In this document: positions 7,311-38,360 of the stretch, piece after piece | How the letters are laid out: every line of letters starts with the position of its first letter | Numbering within the stretch: the first letter of the stretch is position 1 | Virus record (IMG/VR): IMGVR_UViG_3300028809_000522 | Coordinates: 1 to 38,360 of that record | Strand: one strand, 5' to 3' | DNA: 38,360 nt | From: a virus | Position numbers and translations under genes: made by a program | Notes under the pieces: generated by a model | What the model was told of the DNA's origin: nothing | The model's database searches: none | What the model saw: the letters and a program-made list of their open reading frames with translations, nothing else

Positions 7311-7315
7311 AGACC

Positions 7316-7744: not shown

Positions 7745-7758
7745 CCGCCACCAGGCCC

Positions 7759-7785
7759 GGCCGGGCGACGCCGTGTCGCCCGGCC
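7759..7785. repeat. Palindromic repeat, GACRC subfamily
   Basis: Core GGGCGACGCCGTGTCGCCC (7763-7781), extended by GGCC on both sides; one G-T wobble breaks perfect pairing. It follows the ArdC-like stop by 14 nt. It is part of a block of about 55 bp (7745-7801) repeated at 10263-10314. Confidence 0.8.
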
Positions 7786-7806
7786 CCTTCACCAGGAGCA
7801 CCGACC

Positions 7807-8397: not shown

Positions 8398-8412
8398 CCA
8401 GGAGACCACGCG

Positions 8413-8841
8413 ATGAAGAAGCCCACGCTACACCAGGTGCTGACCCAGATCGAACGCCGGGCGAAGCGCGCGACGCTGCGCGCCGCCAAGCAGGCCCGCA
8501 AGGACCTGTACAAGGCCCACCGCCTGAAGATCGACCCCAAGCTATGGGCCGAGGTGATCGCCGCCAGCACTCGCGAGACGGATTCCCGCATGATCGCCGC
8601 CGCGTACCTGTTCGCCCTGGCACGCCGCGCGATGATCGACGTCGTGGGCCACCCGGCCATCCTGCCCGAGACCCGCGCGTCCCTCATGCGGAAGATGAGC
8701 AACATTCAGGACCGCATCGCCCAGGCCGATCCGGTCGCGTTGCCGATGCACGAGGCACCCGAGTTGCCGCCCGCGGCCGAACCTGCGAAGATCCTGCCCG
8801 AGCCGGCCCCGCACGTCGCGGAGCCGGGTTCCCTGTTCTGA
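8413..8841 (+). CDS. Unknown helical basic protein, 142 aa
   Basis: ATG 8413 after CAGGAGACCACGCG. The N-terminal half is strongly basic helix (IERRAKRATLRAAKQARKDL) followed by a hydrophobic helical segment (MIAAAYLFALARRAMIDVV). The last third is Pro/Glu-rich and probably unstructured. No family recognised. It lies 15 nt after the preceding gene in the same operon. Confidence 0.7.
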   Translation: MKKPTLHQVLTQIERRAKRATLRAAKQARKDLYKAHRLKIDPKLWAEVIAASTRETDSRMIAAAYLFALARRAMIDVVGHPAILPETRASLMRKMSNIQDRIAQADPVALPMHEAPELPPAAEPAKILPEPAPHVAEPGSLF

Positions 8842-8859
8842 GCACCAGGAGCCGAGACC

Positions 8860-9036
8860 ATGCCACGCACGACCCGCTACCGCATCGCCGACCGCACCGA
8901 AGAAGGGGAATGCCGCCACTGCGGATGCGCGCTCTACGTCGGGGACTACGCCCACATGACCGAGGCCGAGCACGTTTACTGTTCGGCCAAGTGCGCGGCC
9001 TACGAGGCCAGCGACCTGGAACACGAGCGAAACTAA
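8860..9036 (+). CDS. Small treble-clef-like zinc finger protein, 58 aa
   Basis: ATG 8860 follows CACCAGGAGCCGAGACC, the family leader in unpaired form. The protein shows two Cys pairs, CRHCGC (18-23) and CSAKC (41-45), about 20 residues apart, with a short beta region between (ALYVGDYAHM). This spacing fits a small zinc finger of the kind that binds nucleic acid or acts as an adaptor. It ends with an acidic helix. Function unknown. Confidence 0.7.
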   Translation: MPRTTRYRIADRTEEGECRHCGCALYVGDYAHMTEAEHVYCSAKCAAYEASDLEHERN

Positions 9037-9051
9037 CCCACCCACCACCCA

Positions 9052-9063
9052 GGCACAGGAGCC
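9052..9063 (+). promoter_or_regulatory. Shine-Dalgarno hairpin, copy 3
   Basis: GGC-ACAGGA-GCC, 3-bp stem, 6 nt before ATG 9070. Shorter stem than the other copies. Confidence 0.45.
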
Positions 9064-9069
9064 GAGACC

Positions 9070-9486
9070 ATGCGACCGCACTACACCCTCACCGGCCGGA
9101 ACCAGTTCACCCGCTTCACCCACACCGACGAGCACGGCCGGGAACAACTGATCGCGGAATTCTGGAGTACCACCCAGGCCCGCCGCTACGCCACCGCCCA
9201 GGGCTTCACCGTCGAAGCCCTCACGCACGACGACGGCACCCCCGCACTGACCTGGCACCACCCGGCCCCCGGCCCGCTGTTCGAGGCCATCAACCTGGAC
9301 GCCCTCAGCAACGACGCCCCGGACTACGACGAGGCCGCGAAGGTGCTGGGCCAGTACGCGGCCTACTGCGACATGAAGGCCCGCGCCGTCCGACTCAGAG
9401 CGATCGGGGACGTCGAGGCCGCCCAGGCCCACGAGCGGAACGCGGAGGCCATCTACAGCCGACTCCCGCAGTGGGCCAAGTGGTGA
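9070..9486 (+). CDS. Unknown protein, 138 aa
   Basis: The N-terminal half looks like a small alpha/beta unit (FTRFTHTDEHGREQLIAEFW, then ARRYATAQGFTVEAL). The C-terminal half is helical (DEAAKVLGQYAAYCDMKARA; QAHERNAEAIYSRL). No motif recognised. The start is fixed by the leader hairpin at 9052-9063; the gene is followed by a perfect GC hairpin. Confidence 0.7.
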   Translation: MRPHYTLTGRNQFTRFTHTDEHGREQLIAEFWSTTQARRYATAQGFTVEALTHDDGTPALTWHHPAPGPLFEAINLDALSNDAPDYDEAAKVLGQYAAYCDMKARAVRLRAIGDVEAAQAHERNAEAIYSRLPQWAKW

Positions 9487-9503
9487 GCCGGCCCCCGGCG
9501 AGC

Positions 9504-9527
9504 GGCCGGGCCGCACCAGGCCCGGCC
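9504..9527 (+). terminator. Intercistronic GC hairpin
   Basis: GGCCGGGCC-GCACCA-GGCCCGGCC, perfect 9-bp stem 17 nt after the stop of the 138-aa gene. No T run follows. Confidence 0.5.
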
Positions 9528-9567
9528 CCTCACCGGCGATCGACTCCCGACCGCCGACCACCACCCC

Positions 9568-9581
9568 AGGCACAGGAGCCT
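9568..9581 (+). promoter_or_regulatory. Shine-Dalgarno hairpin, copy 4
   Basis: AGGC-ACAGGA-GCCT, 4-bp stem, loop with AGGA, 4 nt before ATG 9586. Confidence 0.55.
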
Positions 9582-9585
9582 TACC

Positions 9586-9846
9586 ATGTCGAGACGAACC
9601 CCCAGGCCCACGCCGACCCCCACGCCGGACGTCCCCGCAATCGTCATCGCCGAGCAGCAGGGCGAGTACGTCGCGTTCCGCATCGCATCCGACCGCCGGC
9701 CGCTCTCCCCGGTCGCGACCTTCCGCGGCCAGATCGGCGGGAACCCCTACAGCCTGTTCGGCGAGGCCGTCGCCGCCTGGCTGGGCGTCGATTCGTGGCA
9801 ACAGACGGAAATCACCGTGGCGACCATGAGCAGCGGCACACTCTAA
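9586..9846 (+). CDS. Unknown small protein, 86 aa
   Basis: A Pro/Thr-rich N terminus (RTPRPTPTPTPDVP) precedes a compact beta-like part (IVIAEQQGEYVAFRIAS; SPVATFRGQIGGNPYSLFGE). No motif recognised. It starts just after the leader hairpin and ends 33 nt before the next gene. Confidence 0.65.
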   Translation: MSRRTPRPTPTPTPDVPAIVIAEQQGEYVAFRIASDRRPLSPVATFRGQIGGNPYSLFGEAVAAWLGVDSWQQTEITVATMSSGTL

Positions 9847-9860
9847 CCCACCACCACCCC

Positions 9861-9874
9861 AGGCACAGGAGCCT
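9861..9874 (+). promoter_or_regulatory. Shine-Dalgarno hairpin, copy 5
   Basis: AGGC-ACAGGA-GCCT, 4-bp stem, 5 nt before ATG 9880. The surrounding 20 bases match copy 4 almost exactly. Confidence 0.55.
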
Positions 9875-9879
9875 AGACC

Positions 9880-10260
9880 ATGTCCCAGCGCGAGACCGTC
9901 CCCACCGCCCGCTTTCTGGTGTGGGAGAACGACCAGTGGGTGAAGATCAGCCTACGGCCCGGCCAGAGCCTGACGCGCGACGTCGGAGGCCCGACCGAAG
10001 AGGGCTATTCGTGGGAGTCCACGACCTGGACCCACACCGGCCAGGGCGTCGCCCAGGAGTACAGCAGCGGCGGCCGCGACTGCGACGGCCGCCACGAGTA
10101 CCACAGCGAAAGCTACTGCCCGCTAGAGGACCTCGCGGCCCGCGACGCCACCGTCGAGAACTACGACGGGACCACGTCGCACGCCGGAGTGATGGCGCCC
10201 GACTGGCAGCACGGGGGGAGCATCCGGCGCGACCACACCGCCGAGGCCGCCGGCTACTGA
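9880..10260 (+). CDS. Unknown polar protein, 126 aa
   Basis: Beta-rich N terminus (TARFLVWENDQWVKISLRPG), then a Gly/Ser/His/Tyr-rich polar region (GGRDCDGRHEYHSESYCPLE) with two Cys. No family recognised. It follows the leader hairpin at 9861-9874 and is followed by a palindromic repeat. Confidence 0.65.
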   Translation: MSQRETVPTARFLVWENDQWVKISLRPGQSLTRDVGGPTEEGYSWESTTWTHTGQGVAQEYSSGGRDCDGRHEYHSESYCPLEDLAARDATVENYDGTTSHAGVMAPDWQHGGSIRRDHTAEAAGY

Positions 10261-10271
10261 CCCCGCCACCA

Positions 10272-10298
10272 GGCCGGGCGACACCGTGTCGCCCGGCC
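10272..10298. repeat. Palindromic repeat, perfect GACAC/GTGTC form
   Basis: Core GGGCGACACCGTGTCGCCC (10276-10294), perfectly self-complementary around a central C and extended by GGCC each side. Compared with the main form, both arms have changed together (GTCAC to GACAC and GTGAC to GTGTC), so pairing is kept. Confidence 0.85.
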
Positions 10299-10323
10299 CC
10301 TTCACCAGGAGCACGAAGCCCCG

Positions 10324-10515
10324 ATGAGACGCAAGCGCAACCCCGGCTGGTTCCGGTGCGGACACGACCCGCGCCGCCACCAACTCACCGCCGAGGAGCG
10401 GAGGCGCGGCGGGAACACCACCGCCCGCATGTACACGATCGTCGGCCCGTGGCCGCCCGACTGGCACGAGCAAGCCACCCGACGAACCACCACCACCCAG
10501 GACAAGCGGCAATGA
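10324..10515 (+). CDS. Unknown small basic protein, 63 aa
   Basis: Starts RRKRNPGWFRCGHDPRRHQL, with a single Cys and several His, then an Arg-rich stretch (EERRRGGNTTARM). It resembles the GWF..GHD...H short basic phage proteins sometimes carrying a host-like 'homing' motif, but nothing firm can be said. The stop overlaps the next ATG (ATGA). Confidence 0.6.
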   Translation: MRRKRNPGWFRCGHDPRRHQLTAEERRRGGNTTARMYTIVGPWPPDWHEQATRRTTTTQDKRQ

Positions 10516-10718
10516 CCACCAAGAGCATCAAACGCGCGCTGGCCCAGTTCAAGCGAGAGCACCCCGGCCACGACAAGCCCGAGCACGTCGAGGAGCACGG
10601 AAACGATTACGTCAATTGCTTCCGATGCTGCGGGGCGATCTACGGCATTCACCAAAACGGCGCGGGGGACTTTGTGTACAAACTGGTTTCAGCGGGGGAC
10701 GAGACATGCCCAGTCTAA
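10512..10718 (+). CDS. Unknown small protein, 68 aa
   Basis: ATG overlaps the previous stop. A basic helix (SIKRALAQFKREHPGHDKPE) is followed by FRCCGAIYGIHQNGAG and ends with ETCPV; the CC pair and final Cys could bind metal. It overlaps the next gene by 13 nt. Confidence 0.6.
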   Translation: MTTKSIKRALAQFKREHPGHDKPEHVEEHGNDYVNCFRCCGAIYGIHQNGAGDFVYKLVSAGDETCPV

Positions 10719-10918
10719 CGCGAAACCTGTTCGACGACCTCGCCGACGAACTCGCCGACCTGGAAGCCCAGGCCGACGACCTCGCGGCCGAGGCCCCGCC
10801 AGCTCGCCGCACGGCCTGCACATGGTGCGGCTACACCGCCCGGCAGGGTTCCCGATTCTGTTCGGCCGACTGCGAAGAACTCGACGCGACCTGTTCGCGG
10901 ATTGAGGCCAAGAAGTAA
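10706..10918 (+). CDS. Small zinc-finger protein, 70 aa
   Basis: Start ATG 10706 has GGGGGA 6 nt upstream, inside the end of the previous gene. An acidic helix (LFDDLADELADLEAQADDLA) is followed by CTWCGY and CSADCEE, a C2-C2 finger like that of the 58-aa protein at 8860. This is the last gene before a hairpin terminator and a new promoter. Confidence 0.7.
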   Translation: MPSLTRNLFDDLADELADLEAQADDLAAEAPPARRTACTWCGYTARQGSRFCSADCEELDATCSRIEAKK

Positions 10919-10930
10919 CTTGCGAAATCC

Positions 10931-10953
10931 GCCCGGCCCGCGGTGGGCCGGGC
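10931..10953 (+). terminator. GC hairpin closing the first early operon
   Basis: GCCCGGCCC-GCGGT-GGGCCGGGC, perfect 9-bp stem 12 nt after a stop. No T run, but it is followed directly by a promoter, so it likely marks a transcription-unit boundary. Confidence 0.55.
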
Positions 10954-10981
10954 TTGACGCGACCCCCCGAACTTTAGTAAT
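10954..10981 (+). promoter_or_regulatory. Sigma-70-like promoter
   Basis: TTGACG (10954-10959), 16-nt spacer, AGTAAT (10976-10981). AT-richness in this region stands out. It drives the 270-aa gene at 11028. Confidence 0.6.
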
Positions 10982-11008
10982 CTCTCCCCTCGCCCACCAT
11001 CTTTCACC

Positions 11009-11022
11009 CGGCAAAGGAGCCG
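11009..11022 (+). promoter_or_regulatory. Shine-Dalgarno hairpin, copy 6
   Basis: CGGC-AAAGGA-GCCG, 4-bp stem different from copies 1-5 on both arms yet fully paired, with the loop presenting AGGA; 5 nt before ATG 11028. Confidence 0.6.
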
Positions 11023-11027
11023 AGACC

Positions 11028-11840
11028 ATGCGTTACGAATTCACCGAGACCGCGCCCGACTTCTCCGGCACGATCACCGTGACCGCCGAGACCTCGCCCG
11101 AGGTATTGGAACTGGCCGATCACTTCCGCATGTTCGACAAGACGAAGCCCGCCGACCTGATGGACCTCGCCCGCGCGATGCAGGCCGGGACGCTGACCTA
11201 CGCCAGCAACCCGCAGTCGAAGCGCCGATGGTTCCGCGTGGAGGCCGCACTCGACCACGAATACACCAAGCCCTACACGGACCTACTCCGCCGCGTCACC
11301 GGCGCGGACCTGGACCACTTCCCCGACATGGACCTGACCCCGTTCCACCCCCGCAGACTGTGCCACACGCACATCACCGCGGCGTGCACGATGGAGCACG
11401 GCCACTACTGCTACGACGTCCTCATCCAGGCCGAGGACTGGAACGGCAAGGACGCGTTCACCCGCGCCCAGATCAACGCCCAAGACTACGCCGAGGAGGA
11501 CTTGGGACACCGGCCGTTTGAGCGCGAGTACGTCGAGGGCCGCAACGGCGTGTTGATGCGAAACCCGAACTACCTGAAGCGGCACCGGGCGAAGCCGACC
11601 ACCGGCGCCCCGTGGCTGTGGGCCGCACTGTTCAACTGGTGGCGCGCGACCCACGCCACGCCCGGCCAGGCCGCCGCCCTCGCCCTGTGCGACGCCACCC
11701 ACGCGAAGCACCGCCTAGAACCCGACTACCTCATCCGCTCCTCGGGCGGCCCGGCCGGACTGATCGGCTACGGCGGAATCATCACAAGCTTCAACGAGCC
11801 GGTCGCCCGCGTGTCGTGGGAAGAGTTCGCCAAGCTGTGA
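11028..11840 (+). CDS. Unknown protein, 270 aa
   Basis: ATG 11028 directly follows leader hairpin copy 6; upstream in-frame codons are rejected because they cover the promoter. The protein is mixed alpha/beta with many aromatic and His residues: RRLCHTHITAACTMEHGHYC suggests a possible metal site (two Cys, three His within 20 residues), and FNWWRATHATPGQAAALALC a helical part. No signal peptide. No family recognised. It has its own promoter and is followed by a 10-bp hairpin. Confidence 0.75.
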   Translation: MRYEFTETAPDFSGTITVTAETSPEVLELADHFRMFDKTKPADLMDLARAMQAGTLTYASNPQSKRRWFRVEAALDHEYTKPYTDLLRRVTGADLDHFPDMDLTPFHPRRLCHTHITAACTMEHGHYCYDVLIQAEDWNGKDAFTRAQINAQDYAEEDLGHRPFEREYVEGRNGVLMRNPNYLKRHRAKPTTGAPWLWAALFNWWRATHATPGQAAALALCDATHAKHRLEPDYLIRSSGGPAGLIGYGGIITSFNEPVARVSWEEFAKL

Positions 11841-24660: not shown

Positions 24661-25158
24661 ATGAGGAAGTTTCTGACAGCCGCCCTGTTCCTGCTGACCG
24701 CCGGCCTGCTGGCCGCGCAGTTGCCCCCGCCGCCCCCGCCGCCGCCGCTGCCCGACGAAGCCGTGTACTCGACGGACGCCTACGTCACGAAGACGAAGGA
24801 CGGGTACCGGATCGAGGGCGATTGCTGGGGCTGGGGCAAGGTGGACGCCAAGACGAAGTATTTCGTTGACGTCGTCGGGGTCGCGTCCGACTCAACCGAC
24901 AGCATGCGCCTGGAGCGGCTGGCGGACGGCAAGGACCTGTACTGGTTCCCCACGCCGTACACCGGCGGCGACGTCGATTGCGGGTGGTGGTATCAAGTCG
25001 TGGCCAGTGACGGCAGCGACCACCTGGGCAACCGCATCGCCACGGACGGCGGGTGTTGGGTGCGGACCGTCCTGTGGAAGTGGGTCGATCAGGGGAACAT
25101 GAATTACGCCGCGTCGGTCGCGGACGACAACTGGTACTGGGCGCCGCTCCTGCCCTAG
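24661..25158 (+). CDS. Secreted protein of unknown function, 165 aa
   Basis: ATG 24661 after GAGGAGGATGGT. A clear signal peptide (RKFLTAALFLLTAGLLAA) is followed by a Pro run (about 21-31) and a Trp/Tyr/Asp-rich beta domain (YRIEGDCWGWGKVDAKTKYF; VDCGWWYQVVASDGSDHLG; CWVRTVLWKWVDQGNMNYAA) with four Cys outside the signal, which may form disulfides. Export suggests a cell-envelope or lysis-related role, or surface exclusion, next to a membrane-anchored coiled-coil gene. No enzyme motif is seen. Confidence 0.75.
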   Translation: MRKFLTAALFLLTAGLLAAQLPPPPPPPPLPDEAVYSTDAYVTKTKDGYRIEGDCWGWGKVDAKTKYFVDVVGVASDSTDSMRLERLADGKDLYWFPTPYTGGDVDCGWWYQVVASDGSDHLGNRIATDGGCWVRTVLWKWVDQGNMNYAASVADDNWYWAPLLP

Positions 25159-25167
25159 TCAACCCCG

Positions 25168-25192
25168 GCCGGGCGTCACCGCGACGCCCGGC
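25168..25192. repeat. Palindromic repeat
   Basis: Core GGGCGTCACCGCGACGCCC (25171-25189), extended by GCC/GGC; one A-C mismatch. Starts 9 nt after the secreted-protein stop. Confidence 0.8.
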
Positions 25193-25289
25193 TTACTTCG
25201 AGGCACCCATGTCTGGACCGTTCGACGCCCCCCTGCCGTACCGGCAGATTGCACACGAAAACTTTCCCTATCTTGCCTGGAGAAAACAC

Positions 25290-27533
25290 ATGGCAGACAC
25301 GGTAACCGCGGCCTCGCCCGAGGCCCTGTCCCGCCTGAGCGGGCAGGTTGACGTTCTGATTGGCCGGGTGGACGCCCAGTCCGTCCTGGTTCGCAACGTC
25401 GCCGGCCGGTGCGACTCGCTCGACGAGTGGTCCAACGAGGCTACCAAACAGATCATCAACAACACCGGGTCGATCGGTAGACTCGAAGACCGCATCAGGA
25501 CGATCGAGGACAAGCTCAACCCGCCGCCACCGCCGCCAGTCGCGAAGTTCCTCGGCCGCATCCTGAGCGGAGAGGCCGGCTGGAGGTGGAACGAGTACGG
25601 CGGCGCGGACGGGTACAACCTGTTCGGGGCCGTCGCGGTCAACAGCCCGATCGCGTCGTGGGCTTTCGGAATCCTTTCGCACGTCTGGGCACCGAACACG
25701 GGCGACAAGCGGGCCGTCCGCGTCACCGACAAGAGTGCCATCGCCGCCTGCCGCTACATGGCTGACAAGTTCGCGTTCACCGTCCAGAAGACCGGACTCC
25801 TGTCCCTGTACTTCCTGGACTGGGACCGCAACGGCCGGGAGCAACTGGTCGAAATCGTTGACCTAAACACCCTGGAGGTGTTGGACGCGCAGACGGTCGC
25901 GTCCTTCGAGAACGGCGCCATGCTCCAGTGGGAGACGACGAGGTCTGTCGGCGTCAGGATCACGAAGACGAAGGGCACCAACGGCGTGATATCGGCCGTC
26001 CTCCTCGGCGGGCCGGTCGAGGTGGACTGGCAGGAAGGACCGCCGCCGCCGGCCGCCGACTGGGACTCCGCGTTCGTGTCGCAGTCCGTACCGACCATCC
26101 TGGAGGCGGATCAGGTCTTCAAGGCCTCGGTGACGCTCCGAAACACCGGCGCGAAGCAGTGGGGGATGCTGAGTGGGGCACAAGAGCCTCCGATTCTGGT
26201 CGCCACCGGCGACTCGTGGGGCACAGACTTCGTCATCCTCGGGCAGGGTCGGTTCATCGACAACGGGCAGGAGGCGGCCTTCGTGTCGCACCTCCGGGCG
26301 CCGTCCGACCCCGGAACTTACACGTTCCGCTGGCGACTGGGTCACCCGTCCGCCGGAGGGTTCGGGGTCGAGAGCGACCCGGTCACGATCACCGTCACGC
26401 CGGCCACGCACCGCCCGCTCGTCCTGCCCACCCCCATGACCGACGATGACGGGCGTGCCCCGCTGACACCAGACCGCGTGGAGTACCTGGGTTCGTTCAA
26501 GTTGCCCAAGTACGTCGGCGGCGCCAACTCCGGCTACTCCGAGACAACGATGGCCCTCAAGGAAGTCAACGGTGTCAAGCGGCTCGTGATCGGCTACAAC
26601 CACCCACGCCACTGGCTGTTCGAGGTGAACATCCCCGACCCGGTGAAGTACACGGGGTCGAACCTCCACTCCCTGCCGACCGCCCCACTCGCGAACGAGT
26701 GGGGCGACGTGTCGGCCGGCGGGATCGGCCCGGTCGGTCAGGCGTACTACCGCGACGGCTTCCTGCACTGGTCGTGGCACCACCCGTACTGGACCGGCGG
26801 GCCGATCAAGTGCGCCGGCCGGACGCTGCTGCGCGAGGACGGCACGTTCGCCCCGGCCGGGACGTGGGAGGTTCCGAACCAGAAGTGGCACTGGGGCGGG
26901 ACACACCTGCTGCCCAAGAGCTACGCCGACAAGTACACCGGCGGCCGCCGGGACGCCCGCGGGTTCGGGTGCTACTACTCCATCAGCGACCCGTGCAGCC
27001 GGGGCGTCGCCCTCGGCGTGTTCGACGACCCGGACCCGAGTCTCGAATCGCTCGTCCGCAGGCACCAACTCCTCGGCCGGCTGGTGGACAACCCGCTGCC
27101 GCGGCGGGGGGACTACTTCAACGCCAACTGTGACTACTGGGCCGAACAGCCCGAGAGCGCCGACAAGGGCTTCGTCACGTTCGACGACCATTGCCGGGCC
27201 GGCTTGGTGGTCCACCTCCCCGACGTGCAGGGGGCGATCTTCCCCGTCCGGGTCGGCACCGGCCGCCTCGGGTACGACTACGGCTCGATCACCCGCGGCG
27301 GCGGGGCGACCGACTGGTACTTCTTCGACGCCCACGACATCGGCAGCACGCCGGTGGAGTCCGACGATCTGCCCCACGCCATCGACCGGGACGTGCTGAA
27401 CCCTTACGGGAGTGGGCAACTCATCACCTCGCTGGCCCAGGACGGGCGGGTGATCTACGCCCTCCGCGGCCAGGCGTACCAGAACGGCACCGAGTACGAC
27501 CCGCTCGTGGACGTGTTCCGAATCCGTGAGTAG
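25290..27533 (+). CDS. Tail-fibre-like protein with NBR1-type Ig domain and propeller-like region, 747 aa
   Basis: The preferred start is ATG 25290, with GGAG 7 nt upstream. Between the alternative ATG 25209 and 25290, codons 14-27 lose the G/C third-base bias, so that stretch looks non-coding. Domains: an N-terminal coiled coil (1-75), a beta-sandwich (about 90-245), and an NBR1-like Ig domain (about 256-370: DSAFVSQSVPTILEADQVFK ... GTYTFRWRLGHPSAGGFGVE). A beta-rich C-terminal region (395-747) resembles a propeller. No signal peptide is seen. Such multi-domain proteins often bind cell-surface targets, so receptor binding is likely but inferred. It lies on the early strand, far from other tail genes. 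Confidence 0.8.
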   Translation: MADTVTAASPEALSRLSGQVDVLIGRVDAQSVLVRNVAGRCDSLDEWSNEATKQIINNTGSIGRLEDRIRTIEDKLNPPPPPPVAKFLGRILSGEAGWRWNEYGGADGYNLFGAVAVNSPIASWAFGILSHVWAPNTGDKRAVRVTDKSAIAACRYMADKFAFTVQKTGLLSLYFLDWDRNGREQLVEIVDLNTLEVLDAQTVASFENGAMLQWETTRSVGVRITKTKGTNGVISAVLLGGPVEVDWQEGPPPPAADWDSAFVSQSVPTILEADQVFKASVTLRNTGAKQWGMLSGAQEPPILVATGDSWGTDFVILGQGRFIDNGQEAAFVSHLRAPSDPGTYTFRWRLGHPSAGGFGVESDPVTITVTPATHRPLVLPTPMTDDDGRAPLTPDRVEYLGSFKLPKYVGGANSGYSETTMALKEVNGVKRLVIGYNHPRHWLFEVNIPDPVKYTGSNLHSLPTAPLANEWGDVSAGGIGPVGQAYYRDGFLHWSWHHPYWTGGPIKCAGRTLLREDGTFAPAGTWEVPNQKWHWGGTHLLPKSYADKYTGGRRDARGFGCYYSISDPCSRGVALGVFDDPDPSLESLVRRHQLLGRLVDNPLPRRGDYFNANCDYWAEQPESADKGFVTFDDHCRAGLVVHLPDVQGAIFPVRVGTGRLGYDYGSITRGGGATDWYFFDAHDIGSTPVESDDLPHAIDRDVLNPYGSGQLITSLAQDGRVIYALRGQAYQNGTEYDPLVDVFRIRE

Positions 27534-27566: not shown

Positions 27567-27680
27567 GTGGAAGAGCAAGACGCCGAGTTCTGCTTCATGG
27601 TCGCCGCGATCGGAGTCGCGGCGGCCTACCTGTCCTGGATCGTCGTCAGCGTCTGGACGATGGAGTCACTTCCCAAGTAG
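27567..27680 (+). CDS. Tiny single-pass membrane protein, 37 aa
   Basis: GTG 27567 with GGAGG 5 nt upstream. An acidic N terminus (EEQDAEF) is followed by one hydrophobic stretch (CFMVAAIGVAAAYLSWIVVS) and a short end. It is the last gene of the plus arm and overlaps the 3' end of the polyvalent gene by 15 nt, tail to tail. A small holin is possible, but no endolysin is seen and the topology could suit other membrane roles. Confidence 0.6.
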   Translation: MEEQDAEFCFMVAAIGVAAAYLSWIVVSVWTMESLPK

Positions 27681-30600
27681 CTTCCTCGCCAGCTCGATCT
27701 GCCGACGCCGCACCGCCGCCACCTGGTCGGCGGTCGGCTCGGCCACCTTCACCTTCCGCCCGTTCCGCAGGGCCTCGCCGCGGGCCTGGCGGCTCAGTTC
27801 GGCCATCTGCCGGGACGCGTTCTCGAACTTCGTCAACTCCGCCGGCTGGCGGCCGCCGCGCCGCTTCGCGTCCTCGGCCTCGGCCCGCAACTCTTCCAGC
27901 CGGGCGTAAAACTCGTCCACGCTCCGCCGGGCGTTCCGCACCTCGGTGAACGGCGTGACCCCGAACCCGCCGGCCCCGAGCTGCTTCGCCGCGTAGGGGA
28001 GTTGGTACTCCGTCAGCTTCCGCGACCGCGACGCGTCCGCCTCACTCTTCGGGACGATCGGCGAACCCTGCCAGTTCTCGTTGCCCTGGAGGTCCCACAG
28101 GATCTGGCCGAACGGCGTGATCGGCACCGGCGGCGTGTTCGACTCCAGCGACCGGGCCAGGTAGCCGCGGACGTCCGGGTTCTTCGCCGCGACCGAGTCC
28201 AGCAGGAGCGGCACCAGGCCGCCGCCGGCCACGTCGAGGCCGCGGGGGGCCGGGAACCGACGCAGGCCCGCGGGCGTGTTGACCACGAAATTTTCGTACC
28301 GGTCGTTCGCCTTCAGCTCCTGGTACCAGTCCTCTTCACTCACGGCCAGCCAGTGGATCGTCCGGGCCACGATGAGGGCCGCCAGCGCGTAGGACGCCCC
28401 CTTCGGGTTGTCCCGCCAGTTGCGGATCGCCTTCGCGAACCCCGCCACCGCCGGCCCGAAGAAGGGTTGGATCTTGTTCAGTTGCCGCGTGACGGACCCC
28501 TGCCGGCCGAACGGCGTCGTCACCTCGTGGGCCGCGTGCTTCGCCTCGGCCAGGAGGTCGAGCGGCACCGGATCGACGTACTGCTCGCCCGCCCTCGCCT
28601 TCGCCTCCGCCGCCGCGAACGACTCCCTCAGCTCGGCCTCGCTCTTGCCCGTCACCTGCTTCAGCCGCGTCACCCACTCGACGTAACGCGGCGCCAGCTC
28701 GCCGGCCCCGGCCAGGTTCAGGACGTCGCCGGCCACGCCCCAGACCGAGTGGACCGTCCGGGCCAGCCGCGACCGCTCGGCCTTCCGCTGCCGCGTGTAC
28801 GCCGTGTCCGGCCGGTCGGGGCGGAACTCGTTGAACTGCCGCAAATCCTCGCCGCGGTCCCGGACGAAGGCCTCCAGCAGCGGGTCGCCCGACTCCCGCC
28901 CGCGGAGCCGGTTGTAGTAGTACGAGTACAGGTCCCGGTAGGCGCCCCAGATCGTGGACGGGTTCGCCGACGTCCGGTCGATCGTGTTCGCCCAGAACTG
29001 GTACACGTCCCGCGGGATGTTCCGCACCTGGAAGCCCAGCGACAAGGTCGAGAACGCCTTCCTCGCCCCCGTGCTCATCAGCTTGAGCGGCTGGACGCCC
29101 ATGACCTTCATCTCCGCCACGCCGCGGACGAGCCTCGCCATCTGGTGGGCGTCCACCGTCTGGTCCGTCAGCAGGTCGAACAACGCCCGGTTGCGCACCC
29201 GCACGTTGGTCAGTTCGCCGCCCGGCCCGGCCCACCACACGGTGTTCGCCTTGCCGTCCTGCCACGGCACCGTCGTCGCCAGCGGCACGCCGCGGCCCGC
29301 CTCCACGTCCGCCAGGGCCTGGTCGAGCTGCGCCCCCGACAGGTTGAACACGTCGAGCGCCCGCTTCGCGATGTCCTGGGCCTCCTTCGTCGGGACGGTC
29401 TCGCCGAACAGGGCGAAGTCCGCCATGCCCGGCTCCTTCAGCAGCTTCATCACCGCGTTCATGCGGATCTGCTTCGCCAGCATCCCGGCCACCAGCTTGA
29501 CCCGCTTGTGGTAGCTGACCATCGGGCTGACGATCTGCTCGGCCGAGTGGCCCTCGCGGGCCTGCAACAGCTTCGGGCTGTCCTTCTCCGCCACGCGGGT
29601 GTGCGGGACGTACATCGGCCGCCGCTGCTCGAGCGCGTCCACCGTCCCCGGCTTCAGGTAGTGGACCTCTGCACTCTCCAGCACGCGGAGGGTGTCGTTG
29701 AACGCCTTCGTCAGCCGCTTCGCCGCCGCCTCGTACCGGTCGCGCTTCGCCGGGTCCGCGTTCACGGAATCGACCACGGCCTGGTACTGCGACCGCTGCC
29801 ACTCCGGCACGGGCGTCTGCCCCATCTCGAAGTCCGCCAGGACCGACCGCGCCACCGCGTAGGTGTCGAACTCGCTCGCCGCCCCGTCCCGCGACGCCAG
29901 GTCCGCCGGGAGGAGGCCGTCGAGGATCTGCGCCTCGCTCTGCCCGATCCGCACCTTCCGCCCCGACTGGATCGTCCACGCCCCGTCACGCAGGAACTCG
30001 CCCGCGATCGACGGCTCGCTCCCCATGAGGTGTTCGAGGATCACGCTCGGCCGCCGGCCCGGCGGCAGCTTCTTGCCGTTCTTCGCCTCGTAGTGGGCCT
30101 CCGCCCGGCGGATCACCGCCAGGTCGTCCACCACGTCGTCGGCCACGCGGCTCGCCACCGACTCGCGGAACTCCGCCAGGGCCTCGCCGCGAGTCAACTC
30201 CGGCCCGGCCGCCCGCCCCGTCTCGCTCACGAGGCCCGCCGCCTTCCGCTCCGGCGACTGCTCGTTGTACCGCCGCCACATGTCCCGCAGCCGGTCGGCC
30301 CGCGCGGTCAGGGCCTGGTCGCCCAGCCACTTCTCCGCGTAATCGCTCGCCGCCTGCTTGTCCGGCGTCAGGTTCGTGAGCTGGTCCGTCGTCCGCAGCC
30401 GGAACCACTCCGCGAAGCCCTCGCTCATCTTCAGCCGACTCATCCGCCGGCCCGGCTCGTAATCGAACGCCGCCAGGCCCCGGGCGACTTCCTTGGGGAG
30501 TCTCGCCGGGTTCGTCTCGAAGCTCCCCTGCCGGAGGATGTGCTCGGCCACCTCGTGGGCCGCCAGGCCGACCGACCCGACGCCCATCGTCCCCGTCTCG

Positions 30601-33600
30601 ATGCCCTGCTCACGCGCCCGGTAGCGGGCGCGGTCGCCCACGCTCCGCGTGACGTACTCCGGCACGCCGAACAGACGCCTCGCCGTCTCGGTGATCGAGA
30701 ACGGCGACGGCCCGGCCTTCCCCCCGCCGCCGCCCTCCGCCTGGTCGGCCGAGGGGCCGTACACGGTCATACCGAACATCGACTGGCCCGGGTCGTCGTC
30801 TTCGCCGAGGTCCTTCGCGATGTCCTTCTCGGACCGACCCTTCGCCCGCTCGGCCCGGCGGAAGGCGTCGGCGTTCGACTCCTCGTAAAAGAACGTCCAG
30901 TCGTCCCTGACGAAGTAGCCGTCCGCGTCGCTGACCGGCTGCGGCTTGCGCACCCGCCACTTCGACCCGGCGTTATAGTTGCCAGCACTCACGGCGATCT
31001 CTTCCTTCGCCGCCGCGACCGTGGGGGCGTCGGCGACGTACTGCCATCGACCGTCGCCGTAGACGTCCACCCACAGCCCGGCGTCGATCGGCTCGTCGTC
31101 GCGGACCTTAACCCTCCTCTCTCCGCCCTCCGCCCGGTCGGCCGAGGGACCCCACGGGATCTCCTCCTCGCCCTCCTTGTTCAGGAGCCGCTCGTCCTCC
31201 TCCAACTGGCGACGCGCCTTCTGGTTCGCCAACTCCTGGCCGAAGTTCTTCCGCGCCTCCCTCTCCGCCCGCTCCCACCCCCAGTCCGGGTTCTGCTTCT
31301 GGTACTTCTCCACCAACTCGCCGAGGAACCGCTCGCGCATTTCCCGCTCGTACACGACGTCCATCCACCGGCCCTCTTCGACCAACTTGTGCTCCTGCAT
31401 CGCGTCCAGGAGCGTGTTCCAGTACGGCTCCTCGATCAGGCCCCGGTCGGCGTAGGCCTGCGCCACCTCGTCGTAGGCCGCCTTCCCCTTCGTCCCGTCC
31501 TTCGCCCGGAACAGCCAGCCCATGCCGTTCTCGATCAGGTCCCCGTACTCGGCCTTGCCCAGGTTCCGCTTGAAGTAGTCCGGGTCCAGCCCGTCCCACT
31601 GGACCTTGATGTCCTCGCCGATCGTCACCGCCCCGGCCTCGCGGCGAATCCGCTCCTCGAAGGCGAAGTCGCTCTCGCCCTGCTTCTTCTGGAGCGGGTC
31701 GTCCACCTTCGACGCCCGCGCGTTCGCCGCCGCCGCCTGGCGGTTCTTCTTCGTCCGCTCGGCCCGCGCCTCGTACTCCTGCCTCAGCTTCTCCGGATCG
31801 GCCCCCAGCAGAGACCCGTCCGCGCTCGACTCGCTCCCCGGCTCGACGTCCACCGGCAGCGTCGCCTCCGCCGCCGGCTTCGCCGCGGGCTTCTTCCTGG
31901 CGCCCGGCTTCTTCTTCGGGGCGGCCGGCTCCTTCGGCTTTTCCAGCTTGCCCTCGCCCTTCGCCAGCCCCTCCAGGGCCTTCAGCGTCATCGCCGGGTC
32001 CTGGCCCGGCACCAGATCCTCCAGGGCCTTCAGCAGGGCCTGCGCCTCCGGCGAGTCCGGACCCGGCACCGGCTTCTTCGCCCCCGGCTTCTTCTTGGCC
32101 GCCGCGATCTCCGCCTTGACCTTCTCCTTCTCCGCCTTCGCCGCGGCCCGCTCCGCCGCGGCCCGGTCCTTCTCCGCCTGCTTCGACGCCCGCTCGGCCT
32201 GCTCCGCCAGGTCCCGCTCCGCCGCCTCCCGGGCCTTCACGCCGGGCGGCACGGTGACGCCCGGCAGTCGGGACGGCGGCCTCTGCGACCGCTCGCCCCT
32301 GCCGGGCGCCGGCTCGCCCTCGCCGCGGGCCGCTACTCCAGGGGGGAGTTGTCGCGAATCGGGATCTTGCCCGCGAGGTGCTTCCGCCCCTTCGCGACCA
32401 ACGTCTGCTGCGTCAGCAATCGCAGCTTCGCGTGCAGCCGCCTTTGCAGCACTTCGTGCAAGCGACTCTCGGCCGAGCTGGTCGGCTTCGGCAACGATCC
32501 TTTGGGCTTCCGCTTCGGCATCGTCGTACTCCTTCTGGGCTTTGGCGAGCGACCTCTCGGCCTCCGCCAACTCTTCGGGGGTGGGGCGGTACTCCTCCAG
32601 CCGGGCGCGCCAGAGCTTCTCCAGTTCCGCCGTGCCGCGGTTCCGGCCGTCCTGCGACAGCCACGCGTGGCGGACCGTGTCCTCGAACACCGACCGGTCG
32701 CGGCCGGTGATCCTGGCCAACTCGTCGATCAGGGGGGTGAACCGCTCGCGGACGCCGCTCGGCAGTCGGGCGTAGGTCGTCCGCTCGAACAGTGCGTTCA
32801 ACTCCCGCTCCGGGCCGGTCACCTGCTCGGCCTTCATCTGCTCCCGGGAGCCGGGCCGGCGCAGCGCCTCCCGCGTCTCCCTCGGGATCGGCCGGTTCTC
32901 CGCCACCGGCGCGTCGCCGTACCGGGCCGACTGCGTACCCTGGTCCGTCCCGCCCACCGGCCGCGGGGCCTCCGACTGCGCAGCCGGGATCGACTCCGCC
33001 GGCTTCGCGGCCGGCGCGTCGTCGGACAGGAGCCGCACCGGCTCCAGGCCCGCCTCCGCCCGGATCTGGTTGTGGTACTCGATCCACTCCGCCATCTCGC
33101 GGAACTCGGGCGACTCCGACGAACCCTTGTACCGGACCGACCGCAGTGCCGGGTTCATGTACATGGGCTGCTGACTGCCGAGGCCCGTCTCCTTCAGCCG
33201 CGCCTCCGGGAAGTCGCCCTCGCCGATCTTCGCGGCGTCGAACTCGATCTGGAACTGGCCCTCCTTCAGGTAGCCGTCGTTCTGGGCCTTCGAGTTCGAG
33301 AACCACAGATTCGCGTACTGCTTGTCCTTGAACAACTCCCGCTTGGTCGCCTCCAGGTTGTTCCCGGCCGCGTTCGCGTCCTTGGAGTCCGGCACCCGGT
33401 ACAGGTTGTTCTCGCCCTGCGTAAAGTCTGCCGGTTGTGCGGGCGCGTCCGCCGGCCCGCCAGGGGCCACAGGAGCGTCCACAGGCGGCGCGACCGCGTC
33501 GGCGGCCGGAACTGCGTCCGCGGGGGGGATCGCCTCTCCTGGGGCCTCTGCGGGCTTCGCCGCCAGCTTCTCGCGGACCGCGGCCTGCAACCGGGCCACC

Positions 33601-35864
33601 ACCGTGGGCGACTTCCCGATGTTGTTGAGGATTGTGCCGATTTTGGCGCGGGTGTTGATCCCGAACGACTTCGCGATCCGCTTGATCTCCGCCTCGCCCA
33701 GGACCTGCACCGGGTCCGGTGGGGCAACCGGGTCAACCGGGGCGGGCGTCACGGTGTCGCCCGCGGCGCCGGCCGGCTTCTCGCCCGCCCTGTACTTCGC
33801 GATCCCCTCCTCGCGGACCCTGCTGTACTCGGCCCGCGCGACGCCGATCGCGTCCGCCTCCGATTTGCCGTCCTGGAACCTGGCCTTCGTGTAGGCCCGC
33901 TGGTAGGCGTCGTTCATGGCCGTCACGATCGGGGACCAGGCCTCACGCGGGATGTCCGACGCGTCGCCCGGCTGAGCCTTCCGCCCGCGGACTTCCGTGA
34001 TCCGGCTCCCGGGGTGGTTGCCGCGGTAGCCTTCGAGTCCGTCCTTCGCCAGCGACTCCGACTTGCCCCACAGTTCCAGTGGGTTGCGGCCCACCTCCGG
34101 CGTCGTCGTGAACGGGAATCGGCCGTCGATGCCACGCTCGCCCGACTTGGGGTTGATGCTCGTCAGCAGGACCTCGCCGTTCGCCACGACCACCCGCTTG
34201 CCCTGTGCGCTCAGCCCCTGCCACATGCCCACCGCCTGGGCGTGCTCCGGGGACAGGAACAGGGTGCGGTCCGACTTCTCCTTTAGGCCCGAGTCCGGGT
34301 CGCCGCCCCTCGCCGCCTTCGTCCGCTGCGTCCGGCCGCCGTCCATCGTGTACGTCGAACCCCGCTCCGTCGTGAACCCCTCGCCGCCTTCCACCACTTC
34401 GGCGGGCTTCGCCGGCTCGGCCGGCTTCTCCGCCGAGGGCCGGCTCTTGCCCCGCCCGTCGCCGGGGTCCGGGATCGACTCCGTCAGCGCGTCCACGAAC
34501 TTCCGCACCGCCGGGTCCTTGACGTGCGAGAACATCGCCCGCGCCTCGCCGCGGGTCAGGTCCGGCTTCTCCGCCATCGCCTTCTGCAACCGGCCGAGGA
34601 TCTGCTCGCCGTACTTCCCGGCCACCCGCTCCAGCGTCGCCTGCCGCTCGCCCCGGGCCTCCAAGAAGGTGTTGACGTAATCGCTGTACTCCTTCTGGAC
34701 CCGCTTCGCCCCCGCCACGCCGTCGTGCAAACCCGCGAACAGCGAGAACGTCACCGCCTGGCTCGCCGCGTTCCGCAGCGCCGCCGGGACGTCCCGCTCC
34801 TGGTCGATGCCGATCAACTGGCCGAGGACGCCGTATCGCGTGTTCGTCTTGTACCCCTCCGCCAGGACCTGGTCGGCCAGGCCCGCCCACACGTCCAGCG
34901 TCGCCTGCTCGCCCACGCCGATCGCGCCCTTCGCCCCCACCCGACCGGCCAGCGTCCGGACGTTGTTCCCCACGGCCTGCATGTGCCCGAGGATCGCCAT
35001 GTTCGCGTAGGCGTAGCCGAGGGCGGTCGGGAAGCCCCGCGGGTCCGAGGGGTCGCGGCCCGCCGCCATGTTGTTCTGGGCCGCGTGCTCCAAATACATC
35101 GACGGGACCATCGGCGTCAGAACCGCCATCCGCCCCGCGTGCGACGCCAGGCCGCCGGCCCGCGCGAGGAGGCCCGGGTTCTTCGCCGCCGCCAGCGGGA
35201 CGCGGGCGAGTTGCGCCGTGTACGCGTTGAGCATCGGGGCCGGGATCAGGCTCGCCGCCTGGGCCGCCCGGCCGCCGCGGGCCAGCCACGCCGCACCCTG
35301 AAGGACCTTGCCCGCCCCGGCGAACTCGCCCACGAACGCGGGGGCCTGGGCCAGGGCCTTGTTGATCGACCCGCCCAGCGTCTGACCCTGCCGCGCGTCG
35401 TTCTCCTGCTGACGCTCGTAGCGCGCGATCGTCGCCGCGTCCTCTTTGGTCGCCCGCCCCTCGCGGAACCGCTTCATGGCTTCCGAGGCCGACTCGTGCT
35501 CGCCGTGCCGGACGCCCTGGCTCGCGAGCGGAATCGCGTTGCGGGCGACGAACCGGCCGAAGTTCCGGACGTTGATCGCCTCCATCTCGCCCGTGGTCGC
35601 CAGCCGCCGCTGCTCCTCGCGGAGCTGGTAGGCCTGCCGGTACTGGGCCGGGTCGATGTTCCGCTGCCGCAGGATGTCCGCGGTCTCGGTCCACGGACGC
35701 CCCGTCTCGGCGCCGGCCCGCACCGCCCGGTCCCCGTACTCGTCGTCGTCCACGATCTTGTCGGCGGAGTCGCGGAGGACGTCCGCGAAGGAGGTGCTTT
35801 CAACGGAAGATCCGCCGGAGGAGACCCCGGCGGACCGTGCGAAGAGATCCACGATGTCGGCCAT
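27666..35864 (-). CDS. Giant polyvalent virion protein, 2732 aa
   Basis: ATG 35864, with AGGAG 9 nt upstream, is the start; longer in-frame sequence is the shadow of the preceding gene. Residues 100-420 are helical with hydrophobic runs. The middle has Ala/Lys/Pro-rich linkers and helical blocks. Around 1765-1820, HEVAEHIL with SEGFAEWFR about 50 residues on recalls the metallopeptidases in phage polyvalent proteins, but histidine spacing is not HExxH. The C-terminal 500 residues match the polyvalent-associated LPD38 type (TPFGRQGSVTRQLNKIQPFF, then RYENFVVNTPAGLRRF). These proteins are packaged and ejected with the DNA. Two palindromic repeats and a nested gene lie inside. Confidence 0.82.
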   Translation of the reverse strand: MADIVDLFARSAGVSSGGSSVESTSFADVLRDSADKIVDDDEYGDRAVRAGAETGRPWTETADILRQRNIDPAQYRQAYQLREEQRRLATTGEMEAINVRNFGRFVARNAIPLASQGVRHGEHESASEAMKRFREGRATKEDAATIARYERQQENDARQGQTLGGSINKALAQAPAFVGEFAGAGKVLQGAAWLARGGRAAQAASLIPAPMLNAYTAQLARVPLAAAKNPGLLARAGGLASHAGRMAVLTPMVPSMYLEHAAQNNMAAGRDPSDPRGFPTALGYAYANMAILGHMQAVGNNVRTLAGRVGAKGAIGVGEQATLDVWAGLADQVLAEGYKTNTRYGVLGQLIGIDQERDVPAALRNAASQAVTFSLFAGLHDGVAGAKRVQKEYSDYVNTFLEARGERQATLERVAGKYGEQILGRLQKAMAEKPDLTRGEARAMFSHVKDPAVRKFVDALTESIPDPGDGRGKSRPSAEKPAEPAKPAEVVEGGEGFTTERGSTYTMDGGRTQRTKAARGGDPDSGLKEKSDRTLFLSPEHAQAVGMWQGLSAQGKRVVVANGEVLLTSINPKSGERGIDGRFPFTTTPEVGRNPLELWGKSESLAKDGLEGYRGNHPGSRITEVRGRKAQPGDASDIPREAWSPIVTAMNDAYQRAYTKARFQDGKSEADAIGVARAEYSRVREEGIAKYRAGEKPAGAAGDTVTPAPVDPVAPPDPVQVLGEAEIKRIAKSFGINTRAKIGTILNNIGKSPTVVARLQAAVREKLAAKPAEAPGEAIPPADAVPAADAVAPPVDAPVAPGGPADAPAQPADFTQGENNLYRVPDSKDANAAGNNLEATKRELFKDKQYANLWFSNSKAQNDGYLKEGQFQIEFDAAKIGEGDFPEARLKETGLGSQQPMYMNPALRSVRYKGSSESPEFREMAEWIEYHNQIRAEAGLEPVRLLSDDAPAAKPAESIPAAQSEAPRPVGGTDQGTQSARYGDAPVAENRPIPRETREALRRPGSREQMKAEQVTGPERELNALFERTTYARLPSGVRERFTPLIDELARITGRDRSVFEDTVRHAWLSQDGRNRGTAELEKLWRARLEEYRPTPEELAEAERSLAKAQKEYDDAEAEAQRIVAEADQLGRESLARSAAKAAAREAAIADAADVGREGAEAPRGQDPDSRQLPPGVAARGEGEPAPGRGERSQRPPSRLPGVTVPPGVKAREAAERDLAEQAERASKQAEKDRAAAERAAAKAEKEKVKAEIAAAKKKPGAKKPVPGPDSPEAQALLKALEDLVPGQDPAMTLKALEGLAKGEGKLEKPKEPAAPKKKPGARKKPAAKPAAEATLPVDVEPGSESSADGSLLGADPEKLRQEYEARAERTKKNRQAAAANARASKVDDPLQKKQGESDFAFEERIRREAGAVTIGEDIKVQWDGLDPDYFKRNLGKAEYGDLIENGMGWLFRAKDGTKGKAAYDEVAQAYADRGLIEEPYWNTLLDAMQEHKLVEEGRWMDVVYEREMRERFLGELVEKYQKQNPDWGWERAEREARKNFGQELANQKARRQLEEDERLLNKEGEEEIPWGPSADRAEGGERRVKVRDDEPIDAGLWVDVYGDGRWQYVADAPTVAAAKEEIAVSAGNYNAGSKWRVRKPQPVSDADGYFVRDDWTFFYEESNADAFRRAERAKGRSEKDIAKDLGEDDDPGQSMFGMTVYGPSADQAEGGGGGKAGPSPFSITETARRLFGVPEYVTRSVGDRARYRAREQGIETGTMGVGSVGLAAHEVAEHILRQGSFETNPARLPKEVARGLAAFDYEPGRRMSRLKMSEGFAEWFRLRTTDQLTNLTPDKQAASDYAEKWLGDQALTARADRLRDMWRRYNEQSPERKAAGLVSETGRAAGPELTRGEALAEFRESVASRVADDVVDDLAVIRRAEAHYEAKNGKKLPPGRRPSVILEHLMGSEPSIAGEFLRDGAWTIQSGRKVRIGQSEAQILDGLLPADLASRDGAASEFDTYAVARSVLADFEMGQTPVPEWQRSQYQAVVDSVNADPAKRDRYEAAAKRLTKAFNDTLRVLESAEVHYLKPGTVDALEQRRPMYVPHTRVAEKDSPKLLQAREGHSAEQIVSPMVSYHKRVKLVAGMLAKQIRMNAVMKLLKEPGMADFALFGETVPTKEAQDIAKRALDVFNLSGAQLDQALADVEAGRGVPLATTVPWQDGKANTVWWAGPGGELTNVRVRNRALFDLLTDQTVDAHQMARLVRGVAEMKVMGVQPLKLMSTGARKAFSTLSLGFQVRNIPRDVYQFWANTIDRTSANPSTIWGAYRDLYSYYYNRLRGRESGDPLLEAFVRDRGEDLRQFNEFRPDRPDTAYTRQRKAERSRLARTVHSVWGVAGDVLNLAGAGELAPRYVEWVTRLKQVTGKSEAELRESFAAAEAKARAGEQYVDPVPLDLLAEAKHAAHEVTTPFGRQGSVTRQLNKIQPFFGPAVAGFAKAIRNWRDNPKGASYALAALIVARTIHWLAVSEEDWYQELKANDRYENFVVNTPAGLRRFPAPRGLDVAGGGLVPLLLDSVAAKNPDVRGYLARSLESNTPPVPITPFGQILWDLQGNENWQGSPIVPKSEADASRSRKLTEYQLPYAAKQLGAGGFGVTPFTEVRNARRSVDEFYARLEELRAEAEDAKRRGGRQPAELTKFENASRQMAELSRQARGEALRNGRKVKVAEPTADQVAAVRRRQIELARKLLGK
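30732..31148 (-). repeat. 24-bp direct repeat flanking a module in the polyvalent gene
   Basis: The 24-nt segment encoding PSADRAEGG (31125-31148) recurs with one mismatch at 30732-30755 as PSADQAEGG. The roughly 130-residue domain between them has a Trp/Tyr-rich pattern (WVDVYGDGRWQYVADAPT; WTFFYEESNADAFRRAER). The repeat may mark a module gained or duplicated by recombination. Confidence 0.45.
32244..32262. repeat. Palindromic repeat inside the polyvalent gene, copy A
   Basis: GGGCGGCACGGTGACGCCC with GCC/GGC flanks; one arm base changed. Read on the minus strand as PGVTVPPG in a linker region. Confidence 0.65.
32333..32521 (-). CDS. Nested overprinted gene inside the polyvalent gene, 62 aa
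   Basis: ATG 32521 has AAGGAG exactly 7 nt upstream. In this frame (+1 relative to the polyvalent frame) only about 7 of 62 codons end in A or T, whereas the polyvalent frame over the same bases has about 34 of 62; outside the stretch the polyvalent frame again ends almost always in G or C. Codon bias therefore switches frame over the gene. The product is basic (PKRKPKGSLPKP, then LHEVLQRRLHAKLRLLTQQT), with a helical core; it could bind nucleic acid. No family recognised. Confidence 0.65.
   Translation of the reverse strand: MPKRKPKGSLPKPTSSAESRLHEVLQRRLHAKLRLLTQQTLVAKGRKHLAGKIPIRDNSPLE
33744..33762. repeat. Palindromic repeat inside the polyvalent gene, copy B
   Basis: GGGCGTCACGGTGTCGCCC with GC flanks; a hybrid with one GTCAC arm and one GTGTC arm. 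Read on the minus strand as AGDTVTPA between two Pro-rich segments. Confidence 0.65.
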
Positions 35865-37272: not shown

Positions 37273-37488
37273 TCAGCCGGTGGGAACCCCCACGAGGCCG
37301 ATCGCCGCGTGGTTGGGGTGGAACAACAACAGGTCGGTGGACACCAGTGCCTCCACGACTGCCAGCGTCACGCGGGCGTCGGCCGTGCCGGTGGTCATCG
37401 CCTCGGTGACGAGGAGCGTGGACCGGGCGTCGGCCGTGCCGGTGGTCATCACCTCGGTGACGACCAGTGTGGAGCGCGCGTCGGCCAT
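37273..37488 (-). CDS. Small triple-repeat structural protein, 71 aa
   Basis: ATG overlaps the upstream stop (TGATG). Residues 2-52 are three tandem 17-residue units: ADARSTLVVTEVMTTGT, ADARSTLLVTEAMTTGT and a diverged ADARVTLAVVEALVSTD, with a matching 51-bp DNA repeat. I recall the pattern AR.TL.VVEAL as common in short phage structural proteins next to tail or fibre genes. The units are beta-strand-like and could stack into a fibre or needle. The C terminus is hydrophobic and unrelated. Repeat number could vary by slippage. Confidence 0.75.
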   Translation of the reverse strand: MADARSTLVVTEVMTTGTADARSTLLVTEAMTTGTADARVTLAVVEALVSTDLLLFHPNHAAIGLVGVPTG

Positions 37489-38360
37489 CAGCTACCCGCC
37501 TCGAACCCGAACTCCGCCGCGTTCACGTCCGACGCCGACCACGTCGTCGAGTCGGACGGCTTGACGTCGTAATACTGGCTCCGCAGCGTGTAGCTGTCGG
37601 TGAGGGACACCTCGGTGCCCGGGTAGTCCGTCGAGCCGATGCGGACGACGGGCGCGTAGCCGCGGGCGCCGGCGTCCGTCTTCTTGATCCAGTTGTTGAC
37701 GGAGACCGAGTACACCGCGCTCGTCCCGGCCGGGAGGTCGGGGAACGTGTAGGTGTCCTTCGTCCCGTCCACCGCGCTGCCGACGTAGGTCGTGTCCCCG
37801 TCCCAGGCCCCCGTCACCGGATCGTCCACCAGGAGGTAGTTGTCGGTGGAGTTGCCGTCCGACCCGGTCATGCCCGAGTTCGCGCCGTTGCCGGTCGGCC
37901 GCCCGCCACACACCCGCCAGCGGCCCAGGAAGTTGTTGTTCTGACTCCCGGTCAGGGTGAAGGCGTACCAGTCGTCCCACCGGAACGTGGTCGTGCCGCC
38001 GCCCGTGATCGTCGGCACGCTGCCGTTCAGGCAGCACGTCGTGACGTAGGCGTTCGACGTGTGCTTCGTGTCGGTCGCCGCCGCCAGCGTCAGCACACTC
38101 GCCCCGTCCACCCGCAACTCCACGTCGCCGGACGCGATCGAGTCGGCGATCTTGAACTTCAACTCGATCGTGTGCCACTGGTTCGGCACCAGGACGCCCG
38201 CGGCCGTCGAGCCGAGCGTCGTCGCGTGGGTGTTGCGGAAGATCGAGATCGACAGGTCGTTGTTCAGCACGAGGCCGATCTGGACGTTGCCCGCCGTGTT
38301 GATCGTCGAGCCGTCGAACAACACCATGATGTTGCCGCGGTAGATTCCCGTGCCCGACGT
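37488..38360 (-). CDS. LamG/concanavalin-like structural protein, 5' end cut by window edge
   Basis: At least 290 residues; the reading frame continues upstream past 38360. An internal Met at 38327 is not necessarily the start. The visible N-terminal part looks like a LamG-type jelly roll (LNNDLSISIFRNTHATTLGS; PNQWHTIELKFKIADSIASG; DVELRVDGASVLTLAAATDT; FRWDDWYAFTLTGSQNNNFL). The C-terminal half is another beta domain, Ser/Thr/Asp-rich. Such proteins occur as phage tail, fibre or surface-decorating components that bind sugars or receptors. The stop overlaps the start of the triple-repeat gene. Confidence 0.75.
   Translation of the reverse strand, partial: TSGTGIYRGNIMVLFDGSTINTAGNVQIGLVLNNDLSISIFRNTHATTLGSTAAGVLVPNQWHTIELKFKIADSIASGDVELRVDGASVLTLAAATDTKHTSNAYVTTCCLNGSVPTITGGGTTTFRWDDWYAFTLTGSQNNNFLGRWRVCGGRPTGNGANSGMTGSDGNSTDNYLLVDDPVTGAWDGDTTYVGSAVDGTKDTYTFPDLPAGTSAVYSVSVNNWIKKTDAGARGYAPVVRIGSTDYPGTEVSLTDSYTLRSQYYDVKPSDSTTWSASDVNAAEFGFEAGS

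Follow-up and report, generated by a model that had tools for sequence, protein, structure and literature searches.

The window analysed here is a virus sequence record of 38,360 bases with a G+C content of 70%, whose minus strand carries TerL, an SU10-type portal and further virion genes. At the opposite end of the record from TerL and the portal, and on the same strand, lies a giant ORF (Table 1). The sole domain recognised in the giant protein is LPD38 near its C-terminus, with a borderline score (26.5 bits for the whole ORF and 27.7 bits for the C-terminal part, against a cut-off of 27). Among polyvalent proteins LPD38 is listed for the phage type only (PMC5512222). Given a giant ORF in the virion module with a borderline LPD38, the label of polyvalent protein that an earlier note on this DNA had attached to it is plausible. 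Far from the overlap described below, the giant protein also contains a 130-residue module without a Pfam match here, which is common to phage and conjugative giant proteins and matches gp22 of Sinorhizobium phage PBC5 at 37% and the MobF relaxase of a Paraburkholderia conjugative plasmid at 40%.

Table 1. Features of the window, with positions counted from its first base.
Feature	Coordinates	Strand	Remarks
Giant host ORF	27666..35864	-	2,732 aa from ATG 35864, AGGAG 6 nt upstream; virion-module position
Putative nested gene	32333..32521	-	62 aa (MPKRKPKGSLPKPTSSAESRLHEVLQRRLHAKLRLLTQQTLVAKGRKHLAGKIPIRDNSPLE); +1 frame of the giant ORF, ATG to TAG
AAGGAG, Shine-Dalgarno-like sequence	32529..32534	-	7 nt before the nested ATG
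Maximum-likelihood stretch of abnormal giant-frame codon usage	32334..32522	-	Coincides with the nested ORF to within one codon
Predicted nested-protein helix, residues 16-52	32366..32476	-	Single-sequence AlphaFold2, pLDDT about 95 in residues 21-40
Predicted long giant-protein helix	32385..32579	-	Residues 56-120 of the folded piece; single-sequence AlphaFold2, pLDDT mostly >90
15-nt repeat	32482..32496 and 32509..32523		13 of 15 identical, spacing 27 nt
130-residue module of the giant protein	33984..34376	-	Residues ~497-627
Leader CAGGAGCCNNGACC	7302..11030	+	At 7302, 7793, 8846, 9056, 9866 and 11014
826-aa ORF	25053..27533	+	Borderline N_BRCA1_IG (Ig-like), 26.2 bits against a cut-off of 28
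279-aa protein	37488..38327	-	Matches PHROG 2448 (unknown function)

Elsewhere in the record, a near-identical leader stands directly before the ATG or GTG codons of a run of small plus-strand genes (6 matches with at most 2 mismatches against 0.09 expected), and it may be a translation signal that these genes share and that duplication has spread. Relatives of the 279-aa protein occur in Caulobacter and Brevundimonas phages and in Tetraselmis viridis viruses, with three adjacent matches to it at one locus (L008).

The nested ORF is complete, with its own start codon, ribosome site and stop codon, and lies wholly within the giant ORF in a different frame, as expected of an embedded gene. Its coordinates, its +1 frame and the perfect AAGGAG preceding its ATG were confirmed as the earlier note had given them. 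Throughout the 2,732 codons of the giant gene, the +1 frame contains a single ATG, which is this nested start with its AAGGAG. The window contains 7 instances of AAGGAG followed by ATG after 4 to 10 nucleotides, where 0.52 would be expected, and 4 of the 7 begin evident genes. Near the start of the nested ORF a 15-nt sequence is repeated, encoding MPKRK and LPKPT in the nested frame and DAEAE and VAEAD in the giant frame; it may stem from a small, old duplication. A mobile insertion was considered and rejected, with no bracketing repeats of at least 10 nt and no second copy of the segment in the window.

Over the overlap, the G/C fraction by codon position was 0.89/0.59/0.44 in the giant frame, where 28 of 63 codons end in G or C, and 0.59/0.44/0.89 in the nested frame with the stop codon included, where 55 of the 62 codons before the stop end in G or C. 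The mean third-base G/C (GC3) of the giant gene is 0.94 as against 0.44 over the overlap, and the lowest value of any other 62-codon window is 0.79 within the giant gene, which is one unselected ORF, and 0.77 among all called genes of the window, a minimum that is somewhat flattered because these comparison genes were picked partly by GC3. The exact computation thus showed a shift of GC3 bias from the giant to the nested frame that is stronger than had been claimed. A change-point fit that used giant-frame synonymous codons alone, and was therefore blind to the nested frame, placed the edges of abnormal codon usage at the nested ATG and TAG, with a posterior at the exact codon of 0.29 for the start and 0.47 for the end. 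A random edge would fall within one codon of an ATG with a probability of 0.0011 and of a stop codon with a probability of 0.07. Synonymous usage over the overlap gave z = -15.6 in the giant frame and z = -2.6 in the nested frame, the reference being 0.26 +/- 1.30 for real windows (minimum -5.2) and -3.1 or lower for +1-frame windows.

In a +1 overlap the third base of a nested codon is the first base of a giant-frame codon, and the second nested base is the third giant-frame base. Given that the giant protein is rich in Ala and Glu, part of the high nested GC3 comes for free. However, the coding signature of the nested frame exceeds what the giant frame forces. With the giant protein held fixed and codons chosen as in the phage, the observed nested coding score was never reached in simulation, and with an even choice among synonymous codons 0.04% of the simulated sequences were both stop-free and reached it. 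The nested codon-usage rs of 0.83 compares with 0.59 +/- 0.09 in the even-choice control (p = 0.001) and with 0.75 +/- 0.07 in real gene windows. The nested coding score is +0.26 nats per codon, while real genes score 0.44 +/- 0.14 and stop-free +1 windows -0.34 or lower. Among the 40 same-strand nested ORFs of at least 30 codons in the window it ranks best, the runner-up scoring -0.28. Antisense ORFs score similarly, but over hosts with normal GC3; high antisense scores are a known mirror effect of high GC3. These results bear on the possibility that there is no nested gene, and that a foreign or relaxed segment of the giant frame with poor codon usage happens to leave an ORF open. Although +1 stretches are open in 61 of 288 windows, and unbiased third bases leave 12% of sequences stop-free, the rarity of the observed score in the even-choice simulation argues against such a chance ORF, which also leaves the coincidence of both edges unexplained, and we regard it as highly improbable.

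The giant frame itself looks to be under selection in the overlap. It holds 4 prolines where about 10 are expected in 62 residues (p = 0.0045) and none in the first 31 residues of the overlap (p = 0.01), the expectation being computed for a fixed nested protein encoded with the codon usage of the phage; the deficit is no longer significant if the nested gene merely favours G over C at third positions. A long helix predicted for the giant protein begins 19 residues before the overlap and extends about 46 residues into it, and the overlap segment of the giant protein is acidic (pI 4.5). After the nested TAG, the giant frame is coding-like at once and holds no start codon for 27 codons.

The same GC3 switch would be produced if the giant protein were read in the nested frame between two compensating indels about 190 nt apart, whether by frameshift or assembly error. 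A single assembly covers the site, and a 5.2-kb contig (L002) with 100% identity in the TerL, portal and adjacent gene products ends in another gene, short of the site. However, the two edges would then have landed by chance on the sole ATG of the +1 frame, itself preceded by a perfect Shine-Dalgarno sequence, and on a TAG (probability about 0.0011 x 0.07), and the avoidance of prolines suggests that the giant frame is translated. Compensating indels within a single assembly are the main residual risk, but a small one, and we consider this explanation very improbable. A programmed +1 frameshift near AAGGAG-TAC-GAC-GAT would carry ribosomes into the nested frame as far as the TAG, yielding an N-terminal product of 1,114 residues with a basic tail. 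Frameshifting can be stimulated by an internal Shine-Dalgarno sequence a short way upstream, such as is present here, and the frame is +1 and ends at the TAG. The site nevertheless offers no slippery run and no in-frame stop codon, RNA folding around the nested start was not unusual (z -0.48), the Shine-Dalgarno spacing suits initiation, and the ATG sits exactly at the edge, leaving this pathway with very little probability. An Rfam search of the whole window gave no match, and a structured RNA was rejected as the cause.

Combining the frame switch, its exact match to the start and stop codons and the gene-like codon usage of the nested frame, all features of the sequence, we consider that 32333..32521 on the minus strand is very probably a genuine, separately initiated 62-aa gene. 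The arrangement would cleanly illustrate a type of gene-in-gene overlap that is already known.

Searches of IMG/VR, GTDB genomes, phages and plasmids returned no relative covering the overlap, and the nested protein found no homologue in IMG/VR, GTDB genome contigs, phages, plasmids, Pfam, PHROGs or PDB. A weak Pfam match of the nested protein to DUF7066 (E 0.055, 13.9 bits against a cut-off of 27) was disregarded, as was a 38% match to an alternative frame of PBC5 (E 0.2), which lacks a start codon and a GC3 switch. For the giant gene no relatives were found in IMG/VR or GTDB, and elsewhere only the 130-residue module was matched, in PBC5 and the Paraburkholderia MobF relaxase. Adjacent giant genes of PBC5, considered as an unfused version, showed no similarity to the C-terminal part of the giant ORF. 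Apart from the identical 5.2-kb contig, the remaining relatives have only TerL, the portal or a neighbouring gene in common with the record, with best segments at 28-41%.

Which of the two frames is the older can be approached through codon usage, since a de novo frame is expected to lie farther from genome usage than the old frame, a criterion with a specificity of 1.0 and a sensitivity of 0.52 on 25 viral overlaps (PMC3744397). The result was the opposite of what the earlier note had proposed: the nested rs stands against a giant-frame rs of 0.12 (Hotelling t 5.8, p 9e-7, with the geometry of the overlap as a confounder), so that the nested frame looks ancestral. The giant frame over the overlap, in both its rs and its GC3 of 0.44, looks like a typical phage gene translated in the wrong frame (expected 0.16 and 0.45). 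Thus, of the earlier interpretation, a real nested coding sequence stands, while its origin by de novo overprinting runs against the codon usage. Because the third nested base is the first giant-frame base, dual selection alone could yield much of the codon-usage pattern.

We therefore weighed the possibility that the nested gene is real but arose de novo over an older giant frame, with selection for the new protein rewriting the giant third bases, each of which doubles as a nested second base. In most internal viral overlaps of known polarity the +1 frame is the new one (PMC8227390), which argues against a nested-first history. The nested protein is an orphan, the giant helix starts upstream of the overlap and continues into it, and on either side of the overlap the giant frame looks like coding sequence. 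A giant frame that is coding-like past the TAG and startless for 27 codons is a poor fit to a simple fusion with a downstream gene. On the other hand, the giant frame keeps no genomic codon usage over the overlap whereas that of the nested frame is ordinary, and a fall in GC3 from 0.94 to 0.44 needs about 30 third-base changes. De novo origin is accordingly a possible but doubtful history. Because it accepts the nested gene as real and disputes the history only, the confidence placed in it and that placed in our best explanation add up to more than one. That the small gene came first and was later enclosed seems to us somewhat more likely than not, and for the fuller version, in which a growing giant gene swallowed a pre-existing small gene, so that the giant segment is the younger part and selection now acts on both products, the chances appear evenly balanced.

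The nested product contains 15 K+R and 4 D+E residues and has a pI of 11.65. With the helix predicted for residues 16-52, it agrees with the earlier description of a basic and helical protein, the prediction being made without an alignment and single-sequence models of helical proteins being weak evidence. Marked amphipathicity was rejected for this helix, as it is no greater than in shuffles (p 0.25). No membrane segment was found in the nested protein (highest 19-residue hydropathy 0.03), and it contains no Cys, so that it has neither the lipobox Cys nor the membrane segment of an Rz1-like o-spanin. Tentatively, the product, with its basic tail and helix, may act in virion assembly or early infection by binding either nucleic acid or the acidic, helical part of the giant protein.

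Embedded two-component spanins, such as lambda Rz1 wholly inside Rz in the +1 frame, likewise have a small phage gene enclosed by a larger gene of the same strand but a different frame, and they too are commonly missed by gene callers. They have been argued to come from once separate genes, with loss of a stop codon as one proposed route (PMC6139136). Unlike spanins, the nested product has no lipoprotein signal or membrane segment and no homology to them, and its host is a 2,732-aa virion-module protein rather than a lysis gene. Overprinted viral genes of the phiX174 type (PMC8227390, PMC3744397) similarly combine dual coding, a +1 frame and an orphan product. By contrast, codon usage here suggests that the small frame is the older, and in a phage genome of this large size compression offers no obvious motive. 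RpnS within RpnL and Cas11d within Cas10d (PMC10327210) are also made from an internal ribosome start within a large gene, with a small product that could act on the large one; however, those are in frame and have sequence in common with the large protein, whereas the nested gene is out of frame. Finally, the host ORF resembles the phage polyvalent proteins described in PMC5512222, the main text of which does not use the word 'overlapping', in being giant, in following virion genes and in its borderline LPD38, although a single borderline domain is all that was recognised here.

In the proposed mechanism, some of the ribosomes on the giant gene's late mRNA would start independently at the nested AAGGAG and ATG and others would read through in the giant frame, so that one stretch would give two proteins and the nested gene would be expressed in infected cells. 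The small gene may have become enclosed when flanking ORFs were joined across it, or by insertion into a low-complexity linker, and the giant frame may later have been refined by losing prolines within the overlap, leaving a continuous helix. Taken as a whole, an independent 62-aa gene within the giant ORF is the explanation that we hold with high confidence, its origin and function being less sure. Gene callers reject nested frames and so miss such genes systematically; here a strong GC3 bias gives the frame away and allowed detection from a single genome. Should the small gene prove the older, it would show how giant phage proteins can lengthen by reading through their neighbours, and it would cast doubt on the default view that of two such frames the smaller, enclosed one is invariably the younger.
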